In this document: in pieces, positions 31,014-33,593 of the stretch
Layout: every line of letters begins with the position of its first letter
Position numbering within the stretch: the first letter of the stretch is position 1
Assembly: GCA_902787145.1 (NCBI GenBank)
Contig: CADAEZ010000002.1
Coordinates: forward strand, 1 to 64,000
Direction: 5' to 3'
Length of the DNA stretch: 64,000 nucleotides
Origin: an uncultured Ruminococcus sp.
GTDB taxonomy: Bacteria; Bacillota; Clostridia; Oscillospirales; Acutalibacteraceae
Program-made: the position numbers and the translations under genes
The notes under the pieces: model-generated
Told to the model about the DNA's origin: nothing
Database searches by the model: none
Seen by the model: the letters and a program-made list of their open reading frames with translations, nothing else

Positions 31014-32312
31014 TTATTTTACTGCGTCGAAGGCTTCCTGTAAATCGAAGATGATATCGTCGATGTGCTCGGTACCTATCGAAAGTCTGATTGTGTTTTG
31101 GTGGATTCCCTGTTCATTCAGCTCGCTGTCGGAAAGCTGGGAGTGCGTTGTCGAAGCCGGATGAATCGCGAGCGACTTTACGTCCGCAACATTGGCGAGG
31201 AGCGAGAATACCTGCAGCTTGTCGATGAACTTTTTGGCGGTAGCGTCGTCACCCTTTATGTCGAAGGTAAAGATTGAGCCTCCGCCGTTCGGGAAGTATT
31301 TTTTGTACAGCGCGTTATACGGCGAGCTCTCCAGCGACGGATGGTTTATTCGCTCAACCTGGGGATGATTACTCAGGAATTCTATTACCTTTGCCGTATT
31401 GTACGCGTGGCGCTCAACGCGCAGGGACAGAGTCTCCAAACCCTGTAAGAAGATAAAAGCGTGGAAGGGGGAGAGTGTCGCGCCGGTGTCGCGCAGAAGA
31501 ATAGCGCGGATATATGTGACGAAAGAAGCTCCCGGAGCCGCTTCGGTAAATACAGCGCCGTGATAGCTTGGATTAGGCTCGGAAAGCTTTGGAAATTTAC
31601 CGCTCTCAGCCCAGTCAAACTTTCCGCTTTCTACAATAACTCCGCCTATCGCCGTTCCGTGACCGCCGATAAACTTTGTGGCGGAGTGTATGACAATGTC
31701 GGCTCCGTGCTCAATCGGTCTCAACAGGTAGGGAGTGGCAAAAGTGCTGTCTACTACCAGCGGAATATTATGGCTGTGAGCCAGTTCGGCAAGTTTCTCA
31801 ATGTCGATAATATTGGAATTTGGATTTCCGAGCGCCTCGATATAAAGCGCCTTTGTGTTTTCGTCTATCGCTTCCTCAAAGCTTCCCTCGACATCAGGGT
31901 CAACAAAGGAGGTCGTAATCCCGTAGGTGGGTAGGGTGTGGGCGAGAAGGTTGTAGGTACCTCCGTAGATTGTCTTCGCGGCAACAATATTGTCACCGGC
32001 TGAGGCAAGCGCCTGAACGGCGTATGTCACGGCGGCCGCGCCCGAAGCTACCGCTAACGCTGCGGAACCTCCCTCCAGAGAAGCGATTCTTTCCTCAAAA
32101 ACTCCCTGGGTCGGGTTTGTAAGACGGCCGTAGATATTGCCCGCGTCTCTAAGCGCGAATCTGTCGGCGGCGTGCTCGCTGTTATGGAATACATACGAGG
32201 TTGTAGCGTAAATCGGTACAGCTCTGGCGTCTGTAACCGGGTCGGGAGTCTCTTGGCCTATATGAAGTTGTTTTGTCTCAAATCTTAAGTTTCTTTCTTT
32301 TAAATTGCTCAT
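31014..32312 (-). CDS. metY: O-acetylhomoserine sulfhydrylase
   Basis: A 432-aa PLP enzyme of the Cys/Met metabolism family. It makes homocysteine from O-acetylhomoserine and sulfide and can contribute to cysteine synthesis. The PLP lysine is Lys213 in SATKFIGGHGT; also typical are YGRLTNPTQ and LGNPNSNIID. Length matches the MetY subgroup (about 430) rather than MetB/C (about 380-400). AAGGTG lies upstream of the ATG, and this site can be masked by pairing with a Cys-codon leader peptide. The gene is monocistronic with its own promoter and terminator. Confidence 0.95.
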   Translation of the reverse strand: MSNLKERNLRFETKQLHIGQETPDPVTDARAVPIYATTSYVFHNSEHAADRFALRDAGNIYGRLTNPTQGVFEERIASLEGGSAALAVASGAAAVTYAVQALASAGDNIVAAKTIYGGTYNLLAHTLPTYGITTSFVDPDVEGSFEEAIDENTKALYIEALGNPNSNIIDIEKLAELAHSHNIPLVVDSTFATPYLLRPIEHGADIVIHSATKFIGGHGTAIGGVIVESGKFDWAESGKFPKLSEPNPSYHGAVFTEAAPGASFVTYIRAILLRDTGATLSPFHAFIFLQGLETLSLRVERHAYNTAKVIEFLSNHPQVERINHPSLESSPYNALYKKYFPNGGGSIFTFDIKGDDATAKKFIDKLQVFSLLANVADVKSLAIHPASTTHSQLSDSELNEQGIHQNTIRLSIGTEHIDDIIFDLQEAFDAVK

Positions 32313-32314
32313 TG

Positions 32315-32393
32315 TGTAACACCTTTCTAAAAATAATAGTAAATTGTAATTGTTTGTTGATAAACCGGGGTTTTACATTCGTATGGTGTTACA
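32315..32393 (-). promoter_or_regulatory. Predicted translational attenuator of metY
   Basis: On the minus strand TGTAACACC (32393-32385) lies in the leader peptide gene and covers the second Cys codon and the next two codons. It is perfectly complementary to GGTGTTACA (32323-32315), which contains the core of the metY Shine-Dalgarno and the bases before its ATG. The 61-nt loop between holds the leader stop codon. If the helix forms, metY translation should be blocked; a ribosome stalled at the Cys codons would prevent pairing. Confidence 0.6.
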
Positions 32394-32414
32394 ACATCGA
32401 AAAGTATAGTTCAT
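32373..32414 (-). CDS. Cys-Cys leader peptide of metY
   Basis: A 13-codon frame encoding MNYTFRCCNTIRM, with ATG behind AAAGGTGAT at good spacing. Codons 7 and 8 are both TGT (Cys). It lies between a strong promoter and the metY gene, whose product is in sulfur amino-acid synthesis. Polycysteine leader peptides are known to sense cysteine in mycobacteria; a similar role is inferred here. A longer frame to 32813 that contains this peptide overlaps ybeY and is rejected. Confidence 0.7.
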   Translation of the reverse strand: MNYTFRCCNTIRM

Positions 32415-32463
32415 AAAATCACCTTTGCATATATAACCTATAGTTTTAATAGGAATTACGTAT

Positions 32464-32491
32464 ATAATACCATAAAATCCTGATTTGTCAA
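32464..32491 (-). promoter_or_regulatory. Promoter of the leader peptide and metY
   Basis: On the minus strand a consensus TTGACA (32491-32486), a 16-bp spacer and TATTAT (32469-32464). The expected start near 32457 leaves about 43 nt before the leader peptide ATG. Confidence 0.75.
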
Positions 32492-33060: not shown

Positions 33061-33513
33061 TTATAAATCGTCCCAAGGTGCATTAACTTTTTCCAATAAC
33101 GAAAGCAGGACGTCTTTTTCCTCGTCGTCAAGGCCCGAAAGCAATTCGACAATTCTTAAAGACCTGTACTCGAATGCCTGATCTGCTATTTCTTTGCCCT
33201 CTTCGGTGAGCGAGATTACCATAGTTCTTTTATCGATACTGCTCGGCACACGGCTTACATAGCCCTTTGCCGTAAGCTTCGACAAAACTTCACTCATAGA
33301 GGCAGGCTTAATCTTAAGCATTTCGGTCAATTCGCGTTGAGTGATACCATTTGTATACCTGAGCAGAATCAAAACTCTTCTTTGGCTTTTTTTACCTTCA
33401 TAAAGAAAGTGGATTTTCTGCTCAAGGTCTCGGATGTTTAAAAGAATTTTGTCGTTGACATCCTTGTTTTGATACTCAGACGATTGATTGACATTGTTCT
33501 TTTGTTCTGACAT
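33061..33513 (-). CDS. MarR-family transcriptional regulator
   Basis: A 150-aa winged-helix regulator. The DNA-binding region is visible as GITQRELTEMLKIKPASMSEVLSKL and GYVSRVPSSIDKRTMVISLTEEGKEI (landmarks), the wing carrying the typical D-R-T/R motif. ATG at 33513 fits GTGGGG better than the adjacent ATG at 33516. A longer frame to 33681 runs through the promoter. Two AGGTACCT palindromes flank the promoter, suggesting autorepression. The ligand is unknown; ybeY lies downstream. Confidence 0.9.
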   Translation of the reverse strand: MSEQKNNVNQSSEYQNKDVNDKILLNIRDLEQKIHFLYEGKKSQRRVLILLRYTNGITQRELTEMLKIKPASMSEVLSKLTAKGYVSRVPSSIDKRTMVISLTEEGKEIADQAFEYRSLRIVELLSGLDDEEKDVLLSLLEKVNAPWDDL

Positions 33514-33534
33514 CATAATCCCCACAATTTCGTT

Positions 33535-33593
33535 AGGTACCTTGAGTCTAAAATAATTATACATTATATATTGTCTTGCGTCAAGGTACCTTA
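33535..33593. promoter_or_regulatory. Twin AGGTACCT operator-like palindromes
   Basis: AGGTACCT occurs at 33535-33542 and 33584-33591, centres 49 bp apart. Extended forms are AGGTACCTTGA (33535-33545) and TCAAGGTACCTTA (33581-33593), so the two sites read as inverse copies. One overlaps the -35 and one lies after the transcription start. The rest of 33594-33835 is AT-rich with no further feature seen. Confidence 0.6.
33556..33584 (-). promoter_or_regulatory. Promoter of marR-ybeY
   Basis: On the minus strand TTGACG (33584-33579), a 17-bp spacer and TATAAT (33561-33556). Confidence 0.75.

Follow-up and report, generated by a model that had tools for sequence, protein, structure and literature searches.

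A near-invariant CGA-AUG dicodon in short leader frames predicted to control translation of metY in Ruminococcus and other Clostridia

The metY gene in the analysed DNA, a 64,000-nucleotide stretch from an uncultured Ruminococcus sp. (hereafter the window), is preceded by a 13-codon leader frame that has relatives upstream of many metY genes. The arrangement picked out in the initial annotation is real and is part of something larger than that annotation saw, since the dicodon CGA-AUG at the end of the leader, which had gone unremarked, is its nearly invariant part. We propose, with about even confidence, that the leader is a translational attenuator of metY in which a ribosome pausing at CGA-AUG, likely for want of Met-tRNA, would uncover the metY Shine-Dalgarno (SD) region.

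All parts of the locus lie on the minus strand, with the metY start at 32312. Read from the sequence in the direction of transcription, they are:

32464..32491, minus strand: sigma-70-type promoter, TTGACA-16 nt-TATTAT, with 11 of 12 consensus matches
32437..32453, minus strand: CCTAT-N7-ATAGG dyad directly past the promoter, a candidate Rrf2-type (CymR-like) operator
32419..32426, minus strand: SD-like sequence AAAGGTGA of the leader frame
32373..32414, minus strand: 13-codon leader frame MNYTFRCCNTIRM plus TAA, with related frames upstream of metY in the genus
32391..32399, minus strand: CGA-TGT-TGT (Arg-Cys-Cys, RCC), present in a subgroup of leaders only (23 of 69 in the genus)
32385..32393, minus strand: 5' arm TGTAACACC of the putative SD-masking helix, within the leader codons, an exact complement of 32315-32323
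32375..32381, minus strand: CGA-ATG-T (Arg-Met and a following T), the near-invariant core by codon conservation and the predicted pause site
32315..32323, minus strand: 3' arm GGTGTTACA, within the metY SD region, an exact complement of 32385-32393
31014..32312, minus strand: metY, O-acetylhomoserine sulfhydrylase, a frame of 432 aa (TIGR01326, 621.5 bits against a cut-off of 495.1)

The leader reads ATG AAC TAT ACT TTT CGA TGT TGT AAC ACC ATA CGA ATG TAA. The initial annotation had described the promoter, the ribosome binding site followed by a 13-codon frame with adjacent TGT codons, the perfect nine-nucleotide complement to the metY SD region and the lack of a terminator between leader and metY, and all four descriptions were borne out. 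The hairpin search found no terminator-like hairpin between leader and metY, the sole one (32540-32519) lying upstream of the promoter, and a transcriptional attenuator of the trp type was rejected because no intrinsic terminator was found between the two. No Rfam model matched the 64-kb window at its gathering score, so that an Rfam riboswitch or T-box at the leader was also rejected. NCBIfam gave no match for the two leader peptides tried.

Transcription of metY is probably under separate control by an Rrf2-type regulator, for which the promoter dyad is the predicted operator. Dyads of the form CCTA...TAGG resembling that of the window were seen by eye at other metY promoters, and an Rrf2-like gene adjoins metY divergently in two loci (L039 and L047; Pfam PF02082 for the one in L047). 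TTGACA is found within 300 nt upstream of 100 of the 175 metY genes. The promoter scan gave two promoter-like sites against 1.2 expected. A weak promoter-like site (9/12) lies between leader and metY at 32333-32360 on the minus strand and would bypass the leader if used. A MarR-family regulator gene (Pfam; 33064-33555, minus strand) lies two genes upstream of metY.

Comparison of metY upstream regions showed that the leader is widespread. With a threshold of E 1e-150, metY was detected in 107 of 150 genus genomes and 74 of 157 class genomes, giving 175 usable upstream regions; eight loci were unusable (too short, or with an unrecognised metY start), and G081, G087, G115 and G137 were left out of the survey (start absent or contig end). 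Short SD-preceded frames containing Arg-Met, with any Arg codon permitted, lie upstream of 105 of the 175 genes (72 of 89 genus, 11 of 16 further genus and 22 of 70 class regions), compared with 1.2 to 2.9% of mononucleotide shuffles. By the same SD-preceded-frame test, 48 of the 70 class metY genes have no Arg-Met leader. In L027, the closest relative (MetY 89%), the leader is retained as MKTFIFRCCKTIRM.

The Arg codon is CGA in 102 of the 105 Arg-Met regions (AGA twice and AGG once in the remainder) and in 103 of 107 frames when every Arg-Met frame is counted. If more than one Arg-Met frame occurred in a region, one with CGA was given preference, which affected L115 alone; among the shuffles, 0.2 to 1.3% have a CGA frame. 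Of all hexamers, CGAATG is the most widespread, being present in 120 of the 175 upstream regions, its reverse complement CATTCG occurring in seven, and it is followed by T in 68 of 72 genus, 9 of 11 further genus and 17 of 20 class frames. Since the leaders were collected by their Arg-Met, the presence of Met is by construction. A class-wide search of 391 genomes with the pattern L/V-R-x-N-F/Y-R-x-G-R-M, in which the last Arg codon was left free, gave 27 sites in 25 genomes; the last Arg is CGA in all 27, and the codons of the two earlier Arg residues vary. The dicodon CGA-AUG, in most cases with U as the next base, is what stays nearly invariant. Conservation of these seven nucleotides, among them the wobble base and, in most cases, the base that follows AUG, would also be expected if CGAAUGU were recognised as RNA by a trans-acting factor, either a protein or a small RNA, the reading frame being incidental or tuning access. 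However, 99 of 106 CGAATGT sites lie in frame 0 of an SD-preceded frame (two and one in frames 1 and 2, and six in no frame), which a plain RNA site does not predict, and we consider such a site very improbable.

Other frames and loci came up in these searches. A frame with CRM[LF]NSR[AV], at about -170 to -270 of metY, occurs far upstream of the gene in L084, L089, L095, L110 and L457 (similar pieces L077 and L078) and may represent another leader class. In L175, what comes after an Arg-Met leader at about 2353 on the minus strand (VTLQFQILVRSNYRYGRMCRCCC) is a terminator-like hairpin (by eye), with no gene directly following. The pattern TGYTGYN9CGAATGT matches 63 of 150 genus genomes; ten of the 30 loci listed passed the short-frame filter, seven of these lying directly before metY, and the other 20 have a long frame or no start within reach. 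RCCxxxRM was therefore rejected as a general regulon marker.

The genes downstream of the leaders point to sulfur metabolism. Among 27 sites of the class, 23 precede a MetY-like gene (translations read), two a metQ-like gene and one an apparently unrelated gene; the site with no gene is in the window's own genome (contig C11). A collection-wide scan with a pattern fixing CGA, ATG, T and a purine gave at least 80 named loci and at least 120 stretches. Among the 80 loci listed, 61 precede MetY (BLAST) and about 11 precede NlpA/MetQ-like lipoproteins (by eye), and Pfam assigned three of the metQ-like proteins (L167, L202 and L226) to the NlpA lipoproteins. The hosts of the loci listed, judged by record title, are mostly Clostridia, with Erysipelatoclostridium and one Treponema MAG; Ruminococcus sp. 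zg-924 is one of those with a leader of this kind ahead of metY. Sulfate-binding-protein genes (query NF008022) numbered 15 in 15 of 150 genus genomes, and an Arg-Met leader precedes seven of them, all with CGA and all with Cys after Met; one of the seven is the query itself, chosen for its leader, so the independent count is 6 of 14. The leaders of L512, L518-L520, L523 and L524 have a common tail after Arg-Met-Cys (e.g. RMCTSFGGKPYCCM and RMCNIVCMSDGGISYC), which was not seen at metY. The common theme of the downstream genes is sulfur amino acid supply, and with metY, metQ-like and sulfate-binding genes among them, methionine or both sulfur amino acids would be the more economical signal.

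In Firmicutes, Met and Cys genes are controlled by SAM (S-box) riboswitches (RF00162) and T-box leaders, as given in passages of PMC2940859. The SAM riboswitch resembles the present leader in lying upstream of some clostridial metY genes. Sampling covered 20 of the 48 class loci lacking a leader and 20 of the 33 in which an Arg-Met frame is present; the riboswitch was found at 3 of 20 metY loci without a leader and 0 of 20 with one, a contrast that is only suggestive at a Fisher P of 0.23. Unlike SAM riboswitches and T-boxes, the leaders gave no Rfam match, either in the window or at the 20 loci with a leader.

The leader peptides are apparently conserved within subgroups, as LxRxNFRxGRM or as RCCFDTRM with varied codons, and between subgroups have almost only Arg-Met in common (NIDRM, FRMCLCCC, SLNRMCCCRCW, KIRMCTSFGG). 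After Met, the genus leaders mostly have a stop codon (41 of 69) or a Cys codon (21 of 69), a resemblance to leaders that stall at termination. Ribosomes stall near the end of a short or N-terminal peptide in TnaC, SpeFL and the MTO1 region of plant CGS1; the TnaC and SpeFL leaders stall at termination, and CGS1 acts in methionine synthesis. The within-subgroup conservation favours a nascent-chain effect, and the main rival to our reading is an arrest in which the peptide end (e.g. LVRANFRFGRM or RCCxxxRM), on sensing a small sulfur metabolite (candidates being SAM, O-acetylhomoserine and homocysteine), would halt the ribosome at Arg-Met, with the SD-masking output unchanged. However, the subgroups share almost nothing but Arg-Met, and a code at the level of the peptide alone leaves CGA in 102 of 105 regions unexplained while other Arg codons vary. 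The near-invariance of a synonymous codon, with the remaining peptide varying between subgroups, also sets the present leaders apart from TnaC, SpeFL and CGS1. We regard peptide arrest as rather unlikely.

The cysteine codons are common and optional. The window leader, with its two adjacent Cys codons, belongs to the RCC subgroup, in which the Arg codon is CGA in 19 genus leaders, CGT in two and AGA in two. The initial annotation held that scarce Cys-tRNA stalls the ribosome at the Cys codons and thereby frees metY. This agrees with the 23 RCC leaders and with the Cys codons directly after Met, present in the 21 genus leaders and in 36 of 56 class leaders (for which the pattern required T then a purine at this place). 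It also agrees with L461, where CGA-TGT (Arg-Cys) replaces the CGA-ATG of its relatives, with Arg-Met-Cys in all seven sulfate-gene leaders and with the polycysteine leaders described for Actinobacteria in passages of PMC1262725. However, 32 of 125 leaders (17 of 69 genus and 15 of 56 class) have no Cys codon and yet have CGA-AUG, as in L093 (MKLLFEKLLRANFRFGRM). Thus, despite the adjacent pair in the window, a Cys run does not define the group, nor is sensing of cysteine alone the general rule. The cysteine signal was not borne out as first worded: the conservation of Cys codons on which it depended is seen only in part, with 23 of 69 genus leaders keeping RCC. We consider it unlikely that metY is freed by a stall governed by Cys-tRNA supply.

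In the window, the duplex TGTAACACC/GGTGTTACA has an energy of -16.9 kcal/mol, which was reached by 18 of 3000 dinucleotide shuffles, and a perfect nine-nucleotide complement was reached by 54 of 3000; taken alone, this complementarity is only moderately unusual. Folding of the whole window leader was uninformative (minimum free energy z 0.68, with 147 of 200 shuffles folding as well). The strong support for the predicted SD masking is comparative rather than drawn from a single sequence. The duplex energy of the Arg-Met stretch with its own metY SD region was compared with those formed with the SD regions of others, using 125 distinct leader-metY pairs (69 genus and 56 class). The input included the 61 MetY loci among the 80 scan loci listed, from which L224, L236, L241 and L246 were dropped (uncertain start), and two duplicates were removed. 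The own pairs averaged -12.77 kcal/mol vs. -9.63 kcal/mol for swapped pairs (z -14.8, 0 of 10000 permutations), the genus alone giving a z of -7.5 and the class alone -11.1. The excess persists among 101 representatives below 75% identity (z -13.3) and among 33 below 65% (z -6.3), both with 0 of 10000 permutations, and the latter value indicates that relatedness is not the explanation.

The own-pair excess is localised to the leader end. Sliding segments of 32 nt (40 permutations per segment) showed it from -38 to +33 relative to the Met codon, with z values of -7.0 to -11.9, a zone of about the span of a ribosome parked at that codon; the remaining segments with enough sequences had |z| < 2, the sequences being too few beyond about +50. 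Three control segments farther upstream gave z values of -1.6, -2.6 and -2.3 (591, 47 and 121 of 10000 permutations), a slight excess indicating that part of the signal is background. Complementarity between leader and SD is kept by change on both sides: L031 carries a covarying version of the window helix (TGTAATACC/GGTATTACA), and helices of other sequence replace it in L046, L053, L087 and L104. The helices vary both in sequence and in the position of the 5' arm, before or after the stop codon. The covarying complementarity in relatives that the initial annotation had proposed to look for is found, together with the excess over swapped pairs. In L027, the nine-nucleotide complement is lost and a 6-bp pairing of leader codons with the SD (CUUCCG/CGGAGG) is found instead; this pairing shows no preference for its own SD (row rank 11 and column rank 39 of 70). 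Pairing is weak in L029, L039, L065-L069, L096 and L101. Masking of the SD does not hold for all pairs, the own SD being among the best 5% for only 31 of the 125 leaders. Ten metQ-like leaders chosen by eye gave a weaker own-pair result than the metY set (z -2.4, 123 of 10000).

Opening of the SD was modelled with a ribosome footprint of 30 nt for 122 leaders, three of the 125 being dropped for long gaps. The modelled opening is highest with the P site at the Met codon, where the mean unpaired fraction rises from 0.395 to 0.556; it belongs to a broad plateau (-24 to +6) in which the Met codon does not stand out, and the change exceeds 0.2 in 44 of the 122. The modelled change of the window itself is small (0.37 to 0.51). 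With no terminator and a leader end able to mask the SD, translational control fits better than transcriptional control. Coupling of the leader ribosome to Rho-dependent or other termination before metY, with the SD complementarity secondary, has a precedent in the suggestion made for actinobacterial cys leaders without terminators in passages of PMC1262725. However, no terminator was found between leader and metY, and a complementarity specific to the SD region and to a ribosome-sized zone is needless for Rho, which makes such coupling highly improbable.

A tRNA-Met-like element accompanies the leader in a few genomes. The window's genome has a second Arg-Met leader, VKIKFESLVRKNYRFGRMCSCCCSHNF (L155:1480-1740; G000:C11:9265-9525, minus strand), with no gene close after it and only a terminator-like hairpin (by eye). 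It is preceded by a tRNA-Met-like element (ARAGORN: tRNA-Met, CAT) whose D-loop has no GG. When four such elements were aligned, three of the four pairs in the anticodon stem proved to have changed on both sides, which is weak for so few sequences: three pairs of this kind overall were reached by 307 of 500 shuffles, and the covariation score by 3 of 500. A model built from the four matched six of 150 genus genomes at 88-100 bits, the next match scoring 52. An Arg-Met leader follows in all six; the gene after it is metY in G108 and a sulfate-binding gene in G063, and none lies close in G000, G033 and G134 (near-identical) or in G010. Among 100 other loci (L246-L252 left out), one has a tRNA-Met-like element, and this is the own copy. 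G033 has three ordinary CAT tRNAs besides the element. The element fits a link to methionine and is no proof of one.

The decoding of CGA may explain its place before AUG. According to passages of PMC10454642, CGA is generally read by tRNA-Arg(ICG) in eubacteria and is about as frequent as other CGN codons in B. subtilis ribosomal protein genes, so that CGA is not rare in every bacterium. In the relative G033, given as 100% complete, ARAGORN found Arg tRNAs with anticodons TCT, CCT, ACG (the inosine type) and CCG and no TCG tRNA; its list also has no Trp and Ile tRNAs, and a TCG tRNA may therefore be missed. A 3' U weakens A-site decoding. An ACG tRNA without TCG, reading by ICG and the 3' U together suggest that the Met codon in CGA-AUG-U is placed so as to be read slowly.

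In the proposed mechanism, the leader frame would be translated, with CGA read by inosine. A CGA in the P site, together with the U that follows AUG, would make the AUG unusually sensitive to the supply of Met-tRNA. With ample Met-tRNA, the ribosome would complete the leader and depart, leaving the leader end free to pair with the SD of metY, and MetY would stay low. A shortage of Met-tRNA would keep the ribosome at CGA-AUG, on top of the 5' arm, so that the metY SD opens. Where there are Cys codons before or after the Arg-Met pair, they may make the switch responsive to cysteine as well. SD masking, the output half of the initial model, is well supported by the comparisons; that methionine, or both sulfur amino acids, are read at CGA-AUG is a guess, better supported than cysteine. 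Against a sensor of single-codon type, one Met codon is thin, and the start codon of the leader also requires Met-tRNA. More tentatively, the family could be a Clostridia-wide one-dicodon sensor in which an inosine-read P-site CGA (A:I wobble) brakes a single AUG(U), amplifies a gauge of Met-tRNA and opens the SDs of sulfur genes, with Cys as a modular second input and the tRNA-Met-like RNA taking part in a few genomes; we hold this fuller version to be possible rather than probable.

In erm-type translational attenuators, a stalled leader ribosome unmasks the downstream SD. A stalled leader ribosome would do the same here, whereas the predicted signal is a sulfur amino acid and not an antibiotic. 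In passages of PMC2965389, ermC is named as controlling translation without amino acid specificity. Polycysteine leader ORFs are described upstream of cys genes in Actinobacteria (passages of PMC1262725; Canestrari 2020 via PMC9094748). They resemble the present leaders in being short frames before sulfur genes, with no terminator found and with Cys codons in many members. However, the core here is CGA-AUG and not a Cys run, and 32 of 125 leaders have no Cys; the predicted output is that the SD of metY is masked, and most hosts, going by record titles, are Clostridia. Six diagnostic leader peptide strings were absent from the open-licence PMC papers searched, which does not prove their absence from print, and the titles and opening abstract lines of open-licence PMC papers on leader peptides and metY, cysteine, sulfur or methionine show no system of this type.

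If the proposal is true, a translational attenuator acting on metY, metQ-like and sulfate-binding genes would close a gap in what is understood of sulfur amino acid control in Clostridia. A near-invariant synonymous codon beside the sensing codon would then be a clean natural case of a codon-pair sensor, which contrasts with sensors built on codon runs or on peptides and would be directly testable by synonymous changes.
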